Origin: Geodermatophilus telluris
GTDB lineage: Bacteria; Actinomycetota; Actinomycetes; Mycobacteriales; Geodermatophilaceae
Length of the DNA: 64,000 nucleotides
NCBI RefSeq assembly: GCF_900102745.1
Contig: NZ_FMZF01000007.1
Span: forward strand, 186,001 to 250,000
Reading direction: 5' to 3'
The notes under the pieces are model-generated. The model made no database searches. It saw nothing but the letters and a program-made list of their open reading frames with translations, and had not been told where the DNA came from. Positions 14,690-58,862 of this stretch are shown here, one piece after another (position 1 is the first letter of the stretch; each line of letters starts with the position of its first letter). Both the position numbers and the translations under genes were made by a program.

Positions 14690-16774
14690 GTGACCCTGCC
14701 CGAGCAGCGTCCGGGGTCCCCGGGCGGAGCGCCGCCCCGCCCGCTGTCCCCGCTGTCCGACGACCCCGAGGTCAGCCGGCTGCGCTTCGAGCTGGCCATC
14801 GACGCGGCCGGCATCGGCAGCTTCGACTGGGACCTGGTCACCGGCCGGCTGACGTGGGACGAGCAGCTGCTCGCGCTCTTCGGCTTCGAGGAGGGCGAGT
14901 TCGGCGAGACGATCGACGCCTTCGCCGCCCGGCTGCACCCCGACGACCGCGAGCGCACCCTGCAGGCGCTGCAGGGCGCCATCGACACCTGCGGCGACTA
15001 CGCCGCGGAGTTCCGCGCGGTACTGCCCTCGGGCGAGATCCGCTGGATCGAGGGCCGCGGGCGCGCGCTCACCGACGCCTCCGGCGTCGCCGTGCGGCTG
15101 CTCGGGGCCGGTATCGACACCACCCGGGTCCGCGAGGGCGAGGCACGCGTCTCGCGGGTGCTGGAGACCATGCGGTCGGCGTTCTTCGCCCTCGACCGCC
15201 GGTGGCGGTTCACCTACGTCAACGCCGAGGCCGAGCGGGTGCTGCACCGCTCCCGCGAGGAGCTGCTCGGCGGGGTCATCTGGGAGCTGTTCCCGGCCGC
15301 CGTCGGCAGCGACTTCGAGACCCACTACCGCGCCGCGGCGGAGGCCGGGGAGGAGCGGGTCTTCGAGGCGCACTACCCGCCGCCGCTGGACGCCTGGTAC
15401 GAGGTGCGCGCGTGGCCGGGCCCCGACGGGCTGTCGGTGTACTTCCTCGACGTCACCGAGCGGCGGGCCGCCGAGCAGCAGGCCCGGGACAGCGCCGCGC
15501 GGCTGGCCCTGGTGGCCGAGGTCAGCGCGCTCATGTCGACCGCCCTCGGCTCGTCCACCGCCGAGGAGCGGGCGCTGCAGCGGGTCGCCCGGGCGGTGGT
15601 CCCGGTGCTCGGCGACTGGGTGGTCCTCACCCTCTCCGACGCCGTGGACGGCCGGATGCGCGACGTCGCCTCGTGGCACCGGGACCCGGCGCTGCGGACG
15701 ACCACCGCCACCTACGCCGGCCTGCGGCTGGCCTCGGTCGCGCCCGACGCCCCCGTGCTGCAGGCGCTGGAGTCCGGCCGGCTGCTCACCGTCGACGACG
15801 TGCAGGCGGTCGTGCGGCCGACGCTGCCCGAGGGCGAGGTGCGCGACGTCTTCGACGTGCTGGCGCCGCGCTCGGCGGTGACGCTGCCGCTGCTCGCCCG
15901 CGGGCGGACGCTGGGCGCGCTGAGCGTCTACCGCGGCAGCGACCGCCCGGCCGCCGACGCCGAGGACGTCCGCGCCGCCCGGGAGGTCGCCGACCGCGTG
16001 GCGCTCGGGCTGGACAACGCCCGGCTGTTCGACCAGCAGCGCCGGCTGGCCGAGGCGCTGCAGCGCAGCATGCTGACCGCGCCGCCGCAGCCCGACCACG
16101 CCGAGATCGTCGTCCGCTACCAGCCGGCCGTGCAGGCGGCCCAGGTCGGCGGCGACTGGTACGACGCGTTCCTGCAGCCCGACGGCGCCACGGTCCTGGT
16201 CATCGGCGACGTCGTCGGCCACGACACCGAGGCCGCCGCCACGATGGGCCAGCTGCGCGGGATGCTGCGCGGGATCGCCCACCGCGGCGACCACCCGCCC
16301 GACGCGGTGCTGACCGAGCTCGACGCCGCCGTCGACGGGCTCGGCCTGCACTCGATGGCCACCGCGGTGGTGGCCCGGGTGGAGCAGACGCCGGAGCAGC
16401 GCGCCGCCGGCCGCACCACGCTGCGCTGGTCGAACGCCGGCCACCCGCCGCCGCTGCTGCTCACGCCCTCGGGGGAGGTGCGCACGCTCGGCACCGAGCG
16501 CGGGGAGCTGATGCTCGGCGTCGACCCCGGCGCGCGGCGGTCGTCCTCGGCGGTGGAGGTCGCCCGCGGCTCGACGCTGCTGCTCTACACCGACGGGCTG
16601 GTCGAGGGTCGCGACCTGCTGCTCGACGAGGGCATCGAGCTGCTGCGGACGGCGCTGGCGCAGCTCGCGGACCTGCCGCTGGAGCGGCTGTGCGACGCGC
16701 TGGTCACCCGGCTGCGCCCCGAGGGCCTCCAGGACGACGTCGCCCTGGTCGCCATCCGCCTGCACGCCCAATAG
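14690..16774 (+). CDS. PAS-PAS-GAF-PP2C (RsbU/SpoIIE-type) phosphatase
   Basis: 694 residues from GTG 14690. PAS 1 (about 30-150; AIDAAGIGSFDWDLVTGRLT) and PAS 2 (about 160-265; ALDRRWRFTYVNAEAERVLH) precede a GAF domain (about 285-450) and a SpoIIE-type PP2C phosphatase (about 455-694). The metal-binding Asp residues are present in GGDWYD (487-492), VIGDVVGHD, LLLYTDGLVEGR and LQDDVALVA. Such proteins dephosphorylate STAS anti-anti-sigma factors when the sensors fire. It faces a convergent RsbW-like kinase gene, a likely functional partner. No STAS gene lies beside it. Confidence 0.92.
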   Translation: MTLPEQRPGSPGGAPPRPLSPLSDDPEVSRLRFELAIDAAGIGSFDWDLVTGRLTWDEQLLALFGFEEGEFGETIDAFAARLHPDDRERTLQALQGAIDTCGDYAAEFRAVLPSGEIRWIEGRGRALTDASGVAVRLLGAGIDTTRVREGEARVSRVLETMRSAFFALDRRWRFTYVNAEAERVLHRSREELLGGVIWELFPAAVGSDFETHYRAAAEAGEERVFEAHYPPPLDAWYEVRAWPGPDGLSVYFLDVTERRAAEQQARDSAARLALVAEVSALMSTALGSSTAEERALQRVARAVVPVLGDWVVLTLSDAVDGRMRDVASWHRDPALRTTTATYAGLRLASVAPDAPVLQALESGRLLTVDDVQAVVRPTLPEGEVRDVFDVLAPRSAVTLPLLARGRTLGALSVYRGSDRPAADAEDVRAAREVADRVALGLDNARLFDQQRRLAEALQRSMLTAPPQPDHAEIVVRYQPAVQAAQVGGDWYDAFLQPDGATVLVIGDVVGHDTEAAATMGQLRGMLRGIAHRGDHPPDAVLTELDAAVDGLGLHSMATAVVARVEQTPEQRAAGRTTLRWSNAGHPPPLLLTPSGEVRTLGTERGELMLGVDPGARRSSSAVEVARGSTLLLYTDGLVEGRDLLLDEGIELLRTALAQLADLPLERLCDALVTRLRPEGLQDDVALVAIRLHAQ

Positions 16775-16836
16775 AAGGACCTCCCTGCCCCCCACCGCTC
16801 GCACGCTCGCGGCGGGCCCCTGCAGGGAGGCCGTTC
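16775..16836 (-). repeat. Dispersed hairpin repeat, copy B
   Basis: Begins immediately after the TAG of the PP2C gene as AAGGACCTCCCTGC and ends GCAGGGAGGCCGTT. The arms pair apart from one bulged A. Compared with copy A, the base pairs near the loop have changed on both sides (CTGC/GCAG versus CCGC/GCGG). It lies between convergent genes and may act as a terminator. Confidence 0.8.
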
Positions 16837-16843
16837 CAGCACC

Positions 16844-17269
16844 TCACCTGCGGGGGAGGACCGCCCAGACGGTCTTGGCGTCGCCCTCGACGTACCAGCC
16901 GTGCGCGGTCGACAGCTCGGCGATCAGGTGCAGGCCGAGGCCGCCCTCGCTGGGGTCGCGGTCGACGGCCGGCGTCGGCGGCGTCCGCGGGTCGCCGTCG
17001 GAGACCGCCACGAGGAACGCGTCGCCGGTGCGCCGGACGCAGGCCTCCACGCGGCCGCCGCCGTGGCGCAGCGCGTTGGAGGCCATCTCGTCGAGGACGA
17101 GCAGCAACCGGTCGCGCAGCTCCACCGGGCCCTGGGCCGCGGTGTGCCGCCGCAGCTCCTCCCGCACGCGGGGCAGCTCGGTGACGTCGGAGAGCCGCCA
17201 CTGCAGCCCGTCCCACGCCGGGGGCGGGGACGCCGAGGGCCAGCCCGCACCGGCCACTCCCCGTCCCAC
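16844..17269 (-). CDS. RsbW-like ATP-binding anti-sigma regulatory protein (second copy)
   Basis: About 141 residues from GTG 17267-17269; GTG 17255-17257 and longer starts are possible. The ATPase boxes are LVLDEMASNALRHGGGRVEA, AVSDGDPRTPP and DPSEGGLGLHLIAELS, closely parallel to the paralogue at 7194-7691. It would bind ATP and phosphorylate or sequester a STAS or sigma partner. It is convergent with the PP2C phosphatase gene, separated only by the hairpin repeat. Together they form the two enzymatic halves of a partner-switching circuit; the STAS and sigma parts must be elsewhere. Confidence 0.82.
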   Translation of the reverse strand: MGRGVAGAGWPSASPPPAWDGLQWRLSDVTELPRVREELRRHTAAQGPVELRDRLLLVLDEMASNALRHGGGRVEACVRRTGDAFLVAVSDGDPRTPPTPAVDRDPSEGGLGLHLIAELSTAHGWYVEGDAKTVWAVLPRR

Positions 17270-52573: not shown

Positions 52574-52662
52574 CGCCCGGCGCCGCGGGCAACCCCCGGC
52601 TGCGCCTAGGCTGCTCCCGTGATGGGGCGGTGACGGGGCAGGGGGCCACCCCGGAGGCCACC

Positions 52663-55600
52663 ATGCCCGCCCTGGTGCGCACGGTCGACTGGGCGGCCAC
52701 CCCCCTGGGCCCCGAGAGCGGCTGGCCGCAGAGCCTGCGCACCGCGCTGTCGATCTGCCTGGACTCGCGCTTCCCGATGCTGGTGTGGTGGGGCGGCGAG
52801 CTGGTCCAGTTCTACAACGACGCCTACCTGCCCCTGCTCGGCACCAAGCACCCCCGTTCGCTCGGCCAGGGCGCCGCCGAGTGCTGGGCCGAGGCCTGGG
52901 ACGACCTGGGGCCCCTCGCCCGGCAGGTGCTCGACGGCGGAGGCGCCACCTACTCGCAGGACCAGCTGCTCTTCCTCCGGCGGCACGGCTACGTGGAGGA
53001 GTCCTACTGGACCTTCTCCTACAGCCCCGTGACCGACGAGAGCGGTGACGTCGGCGGCGTCTTCATCGCGGTCAACGACACGACCGCGCAGGTGCTGGGG
53101 GACCGCCGGCTGCGCGCGCTGCGCGACCTCGGCGAGCTCTCCACCGCCCCGGTGGGCAGCGAGGCCGAGGCCTGCCGGGCCGTCGTCGACGTCCTGGCCG
53201 CCCACCGCGCCGACCTGCCCTTCGCCGTGGCCCTGCTGCGCACGGCCGGCGGCGCGTTGGAGGTGGCCGGCACCGCGGGTGTCACCGACCCCGCGGTCGT
53301 CCGGCGTGACGACCTCGGCGCCGCCGTCGAGCGGGTCGCGGCGGGCGGTCGCAGTGAGGTCGTGTCCGGGCTGCGCGAGCACGCGGGGGACCGCCTCGCC
53401 GCGGTTCCCGTCGGCGACCTGCGGCCCGACCGCGCCGTCGTCCTCCCGATCACCACGGCGGCGGCGGCCGACACGGCCGGCGTCCTCGTCCTGGGGGTCA
53501 ACCCCTACCGCGCGCTGGACACCGACTACCGCGGCTTCACCGAGCTCGTCGCCGGGCACGTGTCCACCGCCGTCAGCGACGCGCAGGCCTACCTCGCCGA
53601 GCGCCGCCGCGCGGAGGCGCTCGCCGAGCTCGACCGCGCCAAGACCGACTTCTTCAGCAACGTCAGCCACGAGTTCCGCACCCCGCTGACGCTGATCATG
53701 GGACCGGTCGCCGAGCTCCGGTCCTCCCCGGTGGCGGCCGCCGACGCCCGGGTGGCGCAGGAGCTGGAGGTCGTCGAGCGCAACGCGCTGCGGCTGCAGA
53801 AGCTGGTCAACACCCTGCTCGACTTCTCGCGACTGCAGGCCGGCCGGATCGAGGCCCGCTTCGAGCCGGTCGACCTCGCCGCGGTCACCGCCGAGCTGGC
53901 CAGCGTCTTCCGCTCGGCCTTCGACCGCGCCGGCCTGACGCTCACCGTCGACTGCCCGCCGCTGTCCCGGCCGGTGCACGTCGACCGGGACATGTGGGAG
54001 AAGGTCGTCCTCAACCTGCTCTCCAACGCCCTGAAGTTCACCTTCACCGGCGGGGTCACGGTGCGGCTGCGCGAGGAGGCCGGCGGGGACGGTGGCGGGG
54101 ACGGCGCCGCCGTGCTCACCGTCGCCGACACCGGCACCGGCATCCCCGCCGCGGAGCTGCCCCGGCTGTTCGAGCGCTTCACCCGGGTCTCCGGTGCCCG
54201 GGCGCGGTCGGGCGAGGGCAGCGGCATCGGCCTGGCCATGGTGCGCGAGCTGGTCGCGCTGCACGGCGGCACGATCGACGTCGAGAGCACGCCCGACGTC
54301 GGCACCGCGTTCACCGTCGTGCTGCCCACCGGCACCGGCCACCTGCCGGCCGACCGGCTCGCCGCGGCGGTGCCCGAGGCGCCCGCCGTCTCCGCGGCCG
54401 CCGGTCCCTACGTCACCGAGGCGCTGCGCTGGCTGCCCGGGGGAGAGGGCGCGGCCGCCGCGCCGGAGACCGTCCCGGCCCGCGCCGGCCGGGTGCTCGT
54501 GGCCGACGACAACGCCGACATGCGCGACTACGTCGTGCGGCTGCTGTCCCCGGTGCACCGCGTCCAGGCCGTCGCCGACGGGCAGGCCGCGCTCGAGGCG
54601 GCGCAGGCCGACCCGCCCGACCTGGTCGTCAGCGACGTGATGATGCCGCGCCTGGACGGCGTCGGGCTGCTGGCCGCGCTGCGCGGCGACCCGCGCACCG
54701 CCCGCGTGCCCGTCGTCCTGCTGTCGGCCCGCGCCGGGCAGGAGGCGGCGGTGGAGGGCCTGGCCGCCGGCGCCGACGACTACCTGGTCAAGCCGTTCTC
54801 CGCGCAGGAGCTGCTCGCCCGCGTGGACGCCCACCTGCAGCTGGGCCGCGCCCGCCGCGCGGCCGAGCAGCGCTTCACCGCCATGGCCGACCTCGCGCCG
54901 GCGCTGATCTGGGTGGCCGACGGCGAGGGCCGCCGGGTGTTCCTCAACGCCGGCTGGAGCGCCTTCACCGGCCGCCCGGCCGAGGAGGAGCGGGGCGAGG
55001 GCTGGCGCGAGGGCCTGCACCCGCAGGACCGCGACCGCTACGCCCGGACGGTGGCGGCGGCGCTGCAGCGCGGCGAGGGGTGGGAGGTCGAGTTCCGGCT
55101 GCGCCGGGCCGACGGCGCGCACCACTGGCTGCTCGAGCGCGGCGCGCCCATCGGCGGGGACCCGCGGCAGGGCGCCGTCGGCAGCTGCACCGACATCAAC
55201 GCCCGCTACCGCGAGACCGAGCGGCAGACGCTGCTCGCCGAGGTGGGCACCGCGCTGGACCGGGAGACCGAGGTGGAGGGCCAGCTGGCCGGCCTGGCCC
55301 GGCTGCTGGTCGAGCGGCGGCTGGCCGACGCCTGCACCGTCCGCCTGGTCGGCGACGACGGCCGGCTGCGCTACGTGGGCCACGCCGGCCTCGACGGCGA
55401 CCCCGCGGAGGCGCCCGCCGGCCTCGAGCCGCACGGCGGGCTGGGCCGGGTCGTCCTCGACACCGGCGAGTCGCAGCTGCGGCCGCGGCTGGACGGGCGC
55501 GGCGACACCGGCGTCCGGCTGGACCTGAGCTCGGCGCTGGCCGTGCCGCTGTCGGTCCGCGGCGCCGTCCGCGCCGTGCTGGCCCTGGGCCGCCGCGAGG

Positions 55601-57705
55601 ACGCCCCCGCCTTTCACGACGACGACCGGGCACTGGCCGAGGAGATCGCCGCCCGTGCCGCGCTCGCCCTGGACAACGCGCTGCTGCTCGCCGAGGAGCG
55701 GGCCGCCGCGCGCCGGCTGGGCCTGCTGCAGCGGGCCACCGCGGAGCTCTCGGCGGCCAGCACGCCGGTCGACGTCGCCCGCGCCACGGCCGAGCAGGTG
55801 GGCACGCTGACCGGCCACGGCAGCCGGGTCGGTGTCTTCGAGCTCGACGACGCCGGCCGCGAGCTGCGCCTGCTCGCGCTCACCGGATCGGCGCCCGAGG
55901 CCGAGCGGCAGTGGGCCCGCATCCCGCTGTCGGCGCCGCTGGCGGTCACCACGGCGGTCACCGAGCGGCGGCCGCTCTGGGTCGAGGACATGGCCGACTG
56001 GCCGGGCGCCCGCGGCGGCGACGGACTCCCCGACGGGCAGGTCACCACGCTGGCGGCGTTCGGCCTGACCTCCACCGTGGCGCTGCCGCTGGTGGTGGCC
56101 GGCCGGGTGGTCGGCGTGGCGGGCATCGGCTTCCCGGAGGCCCGCCGCTTCGGCGCGGCCGAGCGCGGCATGCTGCTGGCGGTCGCCGAGCAGTGCGCGC
56201 AGGCCCTCGACCGCGCCCGCCTCTACCGCGCCCAGCAGGACATCGCCTCCACCCTGCAGCGCGACCTGCTGCCCCAGGAGCTGCCGCGGCTCGACCGGCT
56301 GGCCCTGGCCGCCGAGTACCTGCCCGGCGCCGCCGGCACCTCCGCCGGGGGTGACTGGTACGACGTCGTCGAGCTCGGCGGCGGGCGGGTGGCCGTCGCC
56401 GTCGGTGACGTCGTCGGCCAGGGGCCCGCGGCGGCCGGCGTCATGGGCCAGCTGCGCAGCGCCCTGTCCGTGGCGCTGCTGCAGGGCAGCTCGCCGGCCG
56501 AGGCGCTGGAGCTGCTCGACCGGTTCGCCGCGCGGCTGCCCGGCGCCCGGGCGTCCACCGCGGCCTGCCTGGTCCTCGACTGCGAGGCGGGCACGGTGCG
56601 CTGGGCCCGTGCCGGCCACCTGCCGCCCCTGCTGCTCGCCGACGGCTCCGCCACGCTGCTCGAGGACGGCGCGGGCGCGGTGCTCGGCGCCGTCGGACGG
56701 CGGCCCTACGCCGAGGGCAGCGCCACCGTGACGCCCGGCGCGACGCTGCTGCTCTACACCGACGGCCTCGTCGAGCGCCGCGGCGAGCCCCTCGACGCCG
56801 GCCTGGAGCGGCTCCGGACGGCCGCGGCGGGGCTGACCGCCGTCGACCCCGCCCGGCTGACGCGCGCGCTGCTCGCCGCGGTGCTCGACGACTCCACCCC
56901 GCCCGACGACGTCGCCGTGATCGCCGGCCGCCTCACGCCCCCGCCGGTGCACGAGACGCTGCCGGCCGACCCCGCCCGGCTCAGCCGCGTCCGCCGCACG
57001 GTGACCGCCTGGGCGCTGGCCGCCGGCCTCCCCGAGGACAGCCTCGACGACCTGCAGCTGGCCCTCGGCGAGGCCCTCGCCAACGCCGTCGAGCACGCCT
57101 ACGCCGCCAACGGCGGCGAGGGCCGGTGCGAGTACCGCCTCGAGCGCACCCCCGACGGCAGCGTCGACGTCTGCGTCCGGGACGAGGGCGTGTGGCGGCC
57201 GGTGCCGGCCGACCCCGGCCACCGGGGCCGCGGCCTCGAGCTGATCTCCGCCCTGGCCAGCGACGTCGAGGTGGCCCGCACGCCCGACGCCCAGGGCGCC
57301 GACGGCGCCGGGACGACGGTGCGGTTCCGGTTCGTGCCGGCCGGGCCGGGCGCCGCCGACCCGCCGGTGCGCCGGGGACCGGCTCCGTCGGCGGCCGGGC
57401 CGGCGCGCCTGGCGGTGCACCGGGACGGCGACGGCCTCCGGCTGGAGGTCACCGGCGAGGTCGACCTCGCGGTGGCCCCCGCGCTGCGGGCCGAGGGACT
57501 GCGGGCCCTGGAGGAGCTGCCGCCGGGCGGGCGGGCGGTGCTCGACCTGCGGCCGGTGACCTACCTGGCCAGCGCCGGCGTGCACCTGGTGCTCGAGCTG
57601 CGGTCGGCGGCGGCGGCCCGCTCGGGCGGGCTGGACGTGCGGACCCGGCCGGGCTCGGCGGCCGAGCGGGTGCTCGAGCTGGGTGCTCAGCTGGGCCGCC
57701 GCTGA
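52663..57705 (+). CDS. Giant hybrid sensor kinase-PP2C-RsbW-STAS signalling protein
   Basis: 1680 residues, ATG 52663 with GGAGG six bases upstream (GTG 52630 also possible). Domains in order: PAS (1-145), GAF (150-310), HisKA with phospho-His336 in NVSHEFRTPL, HATPase (NLLSNALKF, DTGTGIP, GSGIGLAM), receiver with Asp658 in VVSDVMMPRLDG, PAS (750-870), two GAF (880-1030, 1040-1200), SpoIIE-type PP2C (GGDWYD ending at 1234, GDVVGQG, YTDGLVE, PDDVAVI), RsbW-like ATPase (LGEALANAVEHAY, Asn1474), and STAS (VTYLASAGV, Ser1637). It joins a two-component relay to a full partner-switching module. No output sigma factor is adjacent. Confidence 0.93.
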   Translation: MPALVRTVDWAATPLGPESGWPQSLRTALSICLDSRFPMLVWWGGELVQFYNDAYLPLLGTKHPRSLGQGAAECWAEAWDDLGPLARQVLDGGGATYSQDQLLFLRRHGYVEESYWTFSYSPVTDESGDVGGVFIAVNDTTAQVLGDRRLRALRDLGELSTAPVGSEAEACRAVVDVLAAHRADLPFAVALLRTAGGALEVAGTAGVTDPAVVRRDDLGAAVERVAAGGRSEVVSGLREHAGDRLAAVPVGDLRPDRAVVLPITTAAAADTAGVLVLGVNPYRALDTDYRGFTELVAGHVSTAVSDAQAYLAERRRAEALAELDRAKTDFFSNVSHEFRTPLTLIMGPVAELRSSPVAAADARVAQELEVVERNALRLQKLVNTLLDFSRLQAGRIEARFEPVDLAAVTAELASVFRSAFDRAGLTLTVDCPPLSRPVHVDRDMWEKVVLNLLSNALKFTFTGGVTVRLREEAGGDGGGDGAAVLTVADTGTGIPAAELPRLFERFTRVSGARARSGEGSGIGLAMVRELVALHGGTIDVESTPDVGTAFTVVLPTGTGHLPADRLAAAVPEAPAVSAAAGPYVTEALRWLPGGEGAAAAPETVPARAGRVLVADDNADMRDYVVRLLSPVHRVQAVADGQAALEAAQADPPDLVVSDVMMPRLDGVGLLAALRGDPRTARVPVVLLSARAGQEAAVEGLAAGADDYLVKPFSAQELLARVDAHLQLGRARRAAEQRFTAMADLAPALIWVADGEGRRVFLNAGWSAFTGRPAEEERGEGWREGLHPQDRDRYARTVAAALQRGEGWEVEFRLRRADGAHHWLLERGAPIGGDPRQGAVGSCTDINARYRETERQTLLAEVGTALDRETEVEGQLAGLARLLVERRLADACTVRLVGDDGRLRYVGHAGLDGDPAEAPAGLEPHGGLGRVVLDTGESQLRPRLDGRGDTGVRLDLSSALAVPLSVRGAVRAVLALGRREDAPAFHDDDRALAEEIAARAALALDNALLLAEERAAARRLGLLQRATAELSAASTPVDVARATAEQVGTLTGHGSRVGVFELDDAGRELRLLALTGSAPEAERQWARIPLSAPLAVTTAVTERRPLWVEDMADWPGARGGDGLPDGQVTTLAAFGLTSTVALPLVVAGRVVGVAGIGFPEARRFGAAERGMLLAVAEQCAQALDRARLYRAQQDIASTLQRDLLPQELPRLDRLALAAEYLPGAAGTSAGGDWYDVVELGGGRVAVAVGDVVGQGPAAAGVMGQLRSALSVALLQGSSPAEALELLDRFAARLPGARASTAACLVLDCEAGTVRWARAGHLPPLLLADGSATLLEDGAGAVLGAVGRRPYAEGSATVTPGATLLLYTDGLVERRGEPLDAGLERLRTAAAGLTAVDPARLTRALLAAVLDDSTPPDDVAVIAGRLTPPPVHETLPADPARLSRVRRTVTAWALAAGLPEDSLDDLQLALGEALANAVEHAYAANGGEGRCEYRLERTPDGSVDVCVRDEGVWRPVPADPGHRGRGLELISALASDVEVARTPDAQGADGAGTTVRFRFVPAGPGAADPPVRRGPAPSAAGPARLAVHRDGDGLRLEVTGEVDLAVAPALRAEGLRALEELPPGGRAVLDLRPVTYLASAGVHLVLELRSAAAARSGGLDVRTRPGSAAERVLELGAQLGRR

Positions 57706-57824
57706 CGCCCACCGGCTCCCCCGGGCGGGTGGCAGGGGACACCCCGCCGGGAGGTGTCCCGCCGGGTGTTCCACAATGGGGTCGGACGGCTGGGGACCAC
57801 CGGCCCAGAACGGTCGAGGGGCCC

Positions 57825-58862
57825 GTGGATCCACTCGCTGGGGCCTCCGCCACGCAGGCGGAGCCGGGACGCTCGCGCGCGTCCGTCGGGCAGCCCCCGC
57901 CTGCCTTCTCGCACGCCGCGGCCGCGGTCCAGTCCGCCGACGAGCTCGTCGCGGTGGCCGCCGCGTGCGTCGAGGAGGGGCTGCAGCAGGGGGACCTGCC
58001 GGTCCTCGCCCTCGCCCCGGAGGTGGCCGCGGCGGTCCGCCGCGCGCTCGGCGCAGGGGCCGCTGCGGTCGAGGCCGACGAGCGGATCGCGATGCGCGGG
58101 GTCCGGGCGCCCGACGCCCTGGTCGTCGTCCGGCGCTTCCTGGAGCAGGCGCGCAGCAGCCGCTCGGGCCGGCTGCGCGTCGTCGCCGAGCCGCAGTGGG
58201 GGACCGACCCGCTGCGCTGGCGCGAGGTGCGGCGCTTCGAGTCGATGTCCAACGCGCTGATGGCGCGGGCGCCGGTCACGGCGCTGTGCGTCTACGACCG
58301 CGGGCGGCTGCCCGCCGACGTCGTCGCTGCGGCGCGGCACACCCACCCCGAGCTGATCATGGGTGGCATCCGCGTCGCCAGCAGCGGCTACCACCAGCCG
58401 GAGCAGTACCTGCGCGAGCTCGCCGCCGTCCGCGAGCCGGTCGAGGACGGCCGGCCGGTGCTTGTCGTCGACGGCGCCCCGACCCTGCCGGCGCTGCGCG
58501 GCGCGCTCCGGCAGGTCCTCGCCGACCTGGTGCCCGACGAGGACCGGCGCGCCGACCTGCACCTGGCGCTCGCCGAGGTGGCGGCCAACGCCTTCCGGCA
58601 CGGGCGGCAGCCGGTCTCGGCCCGGGTCTGGACCGACGGCGCGCGGATGGTCTGCACGATCACCGACTCGGGCACCGGCTTCGACGACCCCCTCGCGGGC
58701 TTCGTGCCCGCGCACGGCGACGACCTCGCCGCCGGCGGGATGGGCCTGTGGCTCGCGCGCAAGCTGTGGGACTCCGTCGACCTGCGGCGCGGCCCGCACG
58801 GCCTCACCGTGCGGTTGAGCACCCGCCTCGGCGACCCGCCCGGGCGGTCCAGCGCGGCTTGA
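57825..58862 (+). CDS. MEDS domain / HATPase anti-sigma-type regulator
   Basis: 345 residues, GTG 57825. The first 210 residues follow the MEDS (DcmR-like sensory) fold seen in actinobacterial sensors (AFSHAAAAVQSADELVAVAA, TALCVYDRGRLPADVV). The C-terminal part is an RsbW-like ATPase (LHLALAEVAANAFRHGRQPV, TITDSGTGFDDP, AAGGMGLWLARKLWDSV). It lies 120 bp after the giant kinase gene and may take part in the same circuit. It senses an unknown, probably C1-related or redox ligand. Confidence 0.88.
   Translation: MDPLAGASATQAEPGRSRASVGQPPPAFSHAAAAVQSADELVAVAAACVEEGLQQGDLPVLALAPEVAAAVRRALGAGAAAVEADERIAMRGVRAPDALVVVRRFLEQARSSRSGRLRVVAEPQWGTDPLRWREVRRFESMSNALMARAPVTALCVYDRGRLPADVVAAARHTHPELIMGGIRVASSGYHQPEQYLRELAAVREPVEDGRPVLVVDGAPTLPALRGALRQVLADLVPDEDRRADLHLALAEVAANAFRHGRQPVSARVWTDGARMVCTITDSGTGFDDPLAGFVPAHGDDLAAGGMGLWLARKLWDSVDLRRGPHGLTVRLSTRLGDPPGRSSAA

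Follow-up and report, generated by a model that had tools for sequence, protein, structure and literature searches.

In the soil bacterium Geodermatophilus telluris, a single gene at 52663..57705 (+) of the 64,000-nucleotide stretch of DNA analysed here (the window) encodes a protein with the architecture PAS-GAF-HisKA-HATPase-REC-PAS-GAF-GAF-PP2C-RsbW-STAS. The best explanation of this gene, and on balance a probable one, is a two-component-controlled partner-switching protein in one chain; its reactions, its dimerisation, its target, and the sign of control by the receiver are inferred. The protein is real and conserved in four genera, and, judging from its domains, it joins in conserved form two types of fusion that were already known and does not found a new kind.

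The translation from ATG 52663, from which residues are counted throughout, has 1680 residues and a single stop, which is terminal. Pfam matches exceed the curated cut-offs for HisKA (residues 326-394), HATPase_c (441-556), Response_reg (611-721), SpoIIE/PP2C (1240-1423), HATPase_c_2 (1433-1556), and STAS_2 (1594-1672), as well as for PAS_4 in two stretches (best 744-850) and for GAF families, in two stretches each. The chain opens with a PAS domain (residues 20-140; 52720..53082; one of the two PAS_4 stretches) and a first GAF domain (residues 150-310; 53110..53592; one of two GAF_3 stretches), both delimited with models built in this analysis. The features of a hybrid histidine kinase are all present behind them, namely a HisKA dimerisation and phospho-acceptor domain (53638..53844; PF00512, E 1.7e-16) with His336 at 53668-53670, the catalytic HATPase_c domain with its N and G boxes (53983..54330; PF02518), and a C-terminal receiver (54493..54825; PF00072, E 1.6e-24) with the phospho-acceptor Asp658 at 54634-54636. 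A second PAS domain (54892..55212; PF08448/PF08447), a second GAF domain (55285..55677; PF13492), and a third GAF domain (55762..56211; PF13185) lead to an RsbU-like PP2C/SpoIIE phosphatase (56236..56940; PF07228, E 1.3e-42) and an RsbW-like serine kinase of the HATPase_c_2 type (56959..57330; PF13581, E 1.8e-29) with Glu1470 at 57070-57072. After a variable linker (residues 1559-1587; 57337..57423), in which none of the 29 columns is invariant, the chain ends in a STAS domain (57442..57678; PF13466, E 1.2e-8), whose putative phospho-acceptor Ser1637 (57571-57573) aligns with Ser56 of RsbV. The protein is probably soluble, and in a 19-residue hydropathy scan the five top-scoring segments (up to 1.99) all fall inside GAF regions. 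A role as a defence-system protein was rejected, since a PADLOC search for such systems gave just one weak match (E 1.5e-4), on the histidine-kinase part.

Alignment with 22 relatives supports the view that these modules retain their motif residues and are under constraint. All 22 motif positions checked outside the STAS domain show no variation among the query and these relatives; they include His336, then N455, D489, and G521 of HATPase_c, D615, D616, D658, S688, and K710 of the receiver, six acidic residues of the PP2C domain, and the six positions checked in the RsbW-like domain (among them E1470, N1474, D1507, G1509, and G1524). The STAS serine is found in all 21 relatives that have this stretch, the one relative without it being L032. 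With 7 of 87 columns invariant and a mean pairwise identity of 0.48, the STAS domain ranks last in conservation among the six domains with a catalytic or substrate role; the seven invariant columns include Ser1637 and the residue aligned with Asp23 of RsbV. The preliminary description, which had been made from the sequence, thus placed His336, Asp658, and Ser1637 correctly and was right that the frame is unbroken and the key motif of each domain intact; its domain string, HisKA-HATPase-REC-PAS-GAF-GAF-PP2C-HATPase_c_2-STAS, holds for every domain listed but omitted the PAS and GAF domains in front of HisKA.

A domain-architecture search had been proposed as a check on this string, and a scan of genome contigs, sorted with our domain models, gave at least 78 relative loci. 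The STAS domain is fused in 23 of these at least 78 relatives, belonging to Geodermatophilus, Blastococcus, Actinomycetospora, and Pseudonocardia among the matches listed; this set includes one locus cut at its 5' end (L028), and some members have one extra GAF domain. Among the same matches, 31 relatives, all actinobacterial, have the histidine kinase, receiver, PP2C, and RsbW-like domains without a fused STAS domain, 23 have no PP2C-RsbW part (most of them with a second kinase module), and one further locus is cut by a contig end. Judged by the PP2C-RsbW-STAS part, the protein is present in 13 of 13 genomes of the genus, the present one included, with 12 in frames of at least 1,693 aa and one apparently split over two contigs, while eight other genomes of the order gave no full-length match to this part among the matches listed. 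Of 296 genomes sampled evenly from the class, at least two, one of them the present genome, match at E <= 1e-75, a lower bound, as only five candidates per genome were scored.

The relatives also bear on the start codon. In 10 of 12 relatives examined a GTG codon, mostly followed by Thr, lies a little over 20 codons upstream of the first conserved 'DW', and the window has a matching in-frame GTG-Thr at 52630. Because of this agreement the true start is probably GTG 52630 and not the ATG at 52663 taken previously, which would make the gene 52630..57705 and the protein 1691 aa, 11 residues longer.

The strongest evidence that the STAS domain belongs with the PP2C-RsbW part is gene order, which supports this assignment. 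Among the matches listed, a STAS gene of its own lies on the same strand directly after the stop codon in 29 of 31 PP2C-RsbW relatives that have no fused STAS domain (the exceptions, without STAS downstream, are L032 and L063), against none of the 23 relatives without PP2C-RsbW, for which a STAS gene was sought within 400 bases. We therefore regard STAS as the natural partner of this module, and the recurrence of the same partner, in some relatives as the downstream gene and in others as part of the chain, is an independent line of evidence that STAS is what the PP2C-RsbW part acts on. The separate STAS genes start three bases before the last base of the stop in 23 cases (ATGA or GTGA), at TGATG in four, one base after the stop in one, and ten bases before it in one. 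These starts were taken as the possible start nearest the stop, which gives proteins of about 94-125 aa, so the overlap with the stop is partly a matter of choice; the choice is supported by a common M(S/T/P)T start in eight aligned separate STAS proteins. The phospho-acceptor serine is conserved in 29 of 29 separate STAS proteins. In six Amycolatopsis loci (L045, L056, L061, L065, L069, and L073), further STAS genes were observed, and a PP2C and an RsbW-like domain lie just upstream of the gene for the histidine kinase-receiver-PP2C-RsbW protein.

Part of the interface known from Bacillus is conserved. Of the contacts given for Bacillus RsbW and RsbV in the accessible text (PMC7340262), Arg23-Asp23 and Glu49-Ser56 align with the invariant pairs R1444-D1601 and E1470-S1637, RsbW Asp42 aligns with the invariant D1463, and RsbV Tyr53 with the nearly invariant Y1634, while RsbW Lys44 and Ser48 are replaced by Gln and Gly in the query. 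The remaining contact residues named there (Arg84/Arg87, Tyr118, and Ile91) are not covered by the alignments; at the position of the invariant R1669, SpoIIAA and TM1442 also have an Arg. Numbering offsets of 4 and 1 fit every residue type named for the Bacillus pair within the alignments. An AlphaFold2 model of the PP2C-RsbW-STAS part (22 sequences; mean pLDDT 86, pTM 0.81) falls below pLDDT 50 at model residues 372-382, which are residues 1563-1573 in the linker. The best match to the model among solved structures is 3ke6 of Rv1364c (Foldseek E 3.5e-30), and the model also matches RsbW of the RsbV/RsbW crystal. The superposition on 3ke6 is poor across two domains (TM 0.42/0.57, rmsd 7.9), so PP2C and RsbW may be arranged differently to each other than in Rv1364c.

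From these observations the following scheme is proposed. Signals sensed by PAS and GAF domains would set the level of autophosphorylation at His336, and the phosphoryl group would pass from there to Asp658 of the built-in receiver. The receiver, together with the second PAS and the two following GAF domains, would then determine how active the PP2C domain is, by way of the helix that precedes it. The RsbW-like domain would phosphorylate Ser1637 of the C-terminal STAS domain, tethered by the flexible linker, on its own chain or on a dimer mate, and the PP2C domain would take the phosphate off again. Phosphorylation of Ser1637 in cis is likely under this scheme. The unphosphorylated STAS domain would bind the RsbW-like domain of its own chain and, to give an output, also a separate RsbW-like protein, for which the MEDS-HATPase neighbour described below or a sigma-F-type anti-sigma factor is the most likely candidate. 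More tentatively, and with rather less than even confidence, we suggest that the receiver sets the phosphorylation of the tethered STAS domain regardless of protein concentration, all steps being intramolecular, while the same chain signals to the free RsbW-like protein next door. Several points count against the one-chain switch, among them the two replaced RsbW contact residues, the low conservation of the STAS domain, the poor superposition on 3ke6, the absence of the STAS domain from L032, which both trees described below place in the fused group, the absence of a STAS gene behind L063, the negative searches for a sigma factor given below, and the loss of kinase activity stated in the title of one paper on Rv1364c.

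The neighbourhood bears on an alternative in which the chain works chiefly in trans. Downstream of the fusion lies a gene for a MEDS-HATPase_c_2 protein (57825..58862 (+), start approximate; PF14417, PF13581). A start of this gene at the stop of the fusion was rejected, since that position has a CTG codon and a likely start first appears about 120 bases on, and the sequence between the two genes forms no RNA hairpin beyond that of shuffled sequences (z -0.81; 41 of 200 shuffles fold as well). In all 13 other Geodermatophilus and Blastococcus loci with downstream DNA the MEDS domain starts 159-251 bases behind the fusion, and in two of the five fused Pseudonocardia loci a MEDS gene lies upstream, so that a MEDS neighbour is present at 15 of the 23 fused loci. 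With a free-standing companion of this kind next door, a circuit with an output in trans is more likely than a purely closed one, and we consider the MEDS-HATPase neighbour the best candidate for a free RsbW-like partner, though not an obligatory one. In this alternative the PP2C and RsbW domains of the fusion would have free STAS proteins as their main substrates, and its STAS domain would serve a different, free RsbW-like protein (the MEDS-HATPase neighbour or the RsbW of sigma F), the fusion merely co-localising the parts; the genome does contain STAS and RsbW-like genes that stand alone, and the one gene elsewhere in it that exceeds the sigma B/F/G cut-off, a sigma-F-type gene, stands beside an RsbW-like gene. 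We nevertheless hold this alternative to be rather unlikely, because no MEDS gene was found in the surrounding DNA scanned at the other 8 of the 23 fused relatives (all five of Actinomycetospora and three of Pseudonocardia), and because in the relatives with separate genes it is the PP2C-RsbW gene itself that has the STAS gene directly behind it. No sigma-factor domain was found in the ten neighbouring frames scanned, nor any sigma B/F/G match on the contig of the window. The sigma-F-type locus (L093; contig C12 of the same genome, G000, 93021-98093) comprises the sigma gene, the RsbW-like gene, a PP2C-RsbW-STAS fusion in a 621-aa frame, and a stand-alone STAS gene. Elsewhere in the window, at 15755-17191, a PP2C match on the + strand reads across one TAG and is followed by an RsbW-like frame (195 aa) on the - strand.

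Decay of the RsbW and STAS domains, which would in effect reduce the protein to a multi-sensor PP2C phosphatase with other STAS proteins as its substrates, appears improbable. The few invariant STAS columns and the absence of the domain from L032 would fit such decay, as would the residue before the serine (window 57568-57573): the query and its 23 fused relatives have Ala, Pro, or Ser at this position, where 28 of 29 separate partners have Asp. However, the STAS columns that are invariant include the serine and the residue aligned with RsbV Asp23, the RsbW-like domain keeps its six positions, and a residue other than Asp also precedes the serine in 21 of 53 STAS frames under 500 aa in the loci examined, so this change is neither peculiar to the fusion nor a sign of decay. 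We therefore do not favour a degenerate RsbW or STAS domain on the evidence of the alignments. In the fused group the non-Asp residue may be a single inherited change, and it might retune the switch for a tethered substrate.

That neighbouring genes were joined by a sequencing, assembly, or gene-calling artefact, for which one could point only to an opposite strand likewise open over the full length, as high G+C can yield, is practically ruled out by the frames of 1,693-2,112 aa in 11 other genomes of the genus (66-90% identity over the PP2C-RsbW-STAS part; the G. dictyosporus match covers residues 9-1680 at 82%) and by the same architecture in Blastococcus, Actinomycetospora, and Pseudonocardia. 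The antisense frame in question (52606-57834 (-), 1742 aa), open across the whole gene, looks like a by-product of the 77% G+C.

The one-chain switch can be compared with several known systems. Rv1364c of Mycobacterium, a PAS-PP2C-RsbW-STAS protein of 653 aa, reportedly both phosphorylates and dephosphorylates its own STAS Ser600 (PMC9138534, PMC7693655, PMC10950880). The query has PP2C, RsbW, and STAS in the same order on one chain, with the motif residues present, but carries HisKA, HATPase_c, receiver, and GAF domains before PP2C, whereas Rv1364c, by these descriptions, has a single PAS sensor and no histidine kinase, receiver, or GAF domain. The query would thus work like an Rv1364c-type switch while differing from it in architecture. 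The preliminary description had contrasted the presence of kinase, phosphatase, and acceptor in cis with the usual scheme of separate RsbU, RsbW, and RsbV proteins, adding that shorter fusions are known. The usual partners are indeed separate and shorter fusions do exist, as far as the sources consulted describe them, including Rv1364c and, among the matches listed, the 31 loci with HK-REC-PP2C-RsbW; with Rv1364c and two further short chains of PP2C, RsbW, and STAS in the present genome, the arrangement in cis is not unusual in itself.

The query also resembles the RsfS-RsfR-RsfB system of Mycobacterium smegmatis and the RsbK-RsbY-RsbV system of Bacillus cereus, in which, as described in the text available, a histidine kinase acts on a receiver-PP2C protein and this on a STAS antagonist. 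Receiver and PP2C share a chain there as in the query, but the systems consist of separate proteins, whereas the query is one chain that includes the RsbW-like kinase; receiver phosphorylation reportedly raises PP2C activity in RsbY and lowers it in RsfR. A bifunctional protein of Campylobacterota (PMC9239204) likewise has receiver, PP2C, and serine-kinase domains in one chain and a STAS target, but as described in the accessible part of that paper its histidine kinase and its STAS protein are separate, while the query has both fused. Exchangeable sensor domains that control PP2C through a linker have been put forward as a general scheme (PMC12143880, as far as its text was available). The HK-REC-PP2C-RsbW proteins of Actinoplanes, Amycolatopsis, Streptosporangiaceae, and others have the same front end and catalytic back end as the query and differ in that their small STAS protein is encoded by the gene directly behind. 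Conversely, a PAS-GAF-GAF-PP2C-RsbW-STAS frame of 1046 aa in another genome of the genus (L109; G009, contig 17) equals the back half of the query, with 52% identity over PP2C-RsbW-STAS, but HisKA, HATPase_c, and receiver domains were not found there; its cluster also has a second PP2C-RsbW-STAS set, divided between two frames, and a further PP2C frame adjoining a STAS frame. The open-access literature, as far as its text was accessible, yielded no account of a single chain that combines histidine kinase, receiver, PP2C, RsbW, and STAS.

The origin of the fused form was approached with trees of the two halves. In a quick tree of the HK-REC half, 23 of 24 fused rows form one clade (98) nested among the separate-STAS forms (node 91), the exception being L031, which lies outside on a long branch. 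In the PP2C-RsbW trees the fused and the separate forms make two groups, and the L109 frame without a histidine kinase stands beside the fused one; Kutzneria L025 changes sides, from the separate group in the HK-REC tree to the fused group in the PP2C-RsbW trees. Because the two kinds of tree differ, the fused form may have arisen by joining of the downstream STAS gene or by a swap of back ends. In the query, the HK-REC half (52663-54840) groups, well supported, with G. chilensis L021 (76% identical), and the PP2C-RsbW half with G. dictyosporus L009 (91%), a mosaic that suggests exchange of front ends between relatives. A paralogue in the same genome (L002, L099; G000 C2:841318-843936) has the order PAS-GAF-HisKA-HATPase-REC, a Pro/Ala-rich linker, and then directly an RsbW-like domain, and no PP2C or STAS domain was found in its frame with our models.

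If the one-chain switch is the correct explanation, a whole stress-signalling circuit, with two-component input, serine kinase, opposing phosphatase, and phospho-acceptor, would reside in one polypeptide. The analysis also yields a set of actinobacterial hybrid kinases linked to STAS proteins as their likely output. Nature offers three forms of the same machine, one with the STAS domain fused, one with the STAS gene directly behind, and one consisting of the back half without the histidine kinase. With these forms a direct test becomes possible of what it means to tether a substrate to its kinase and phosphatase in a partner switch, and they would also allow receiver control of the PP2C domain to be tested when all parts are on one chain.
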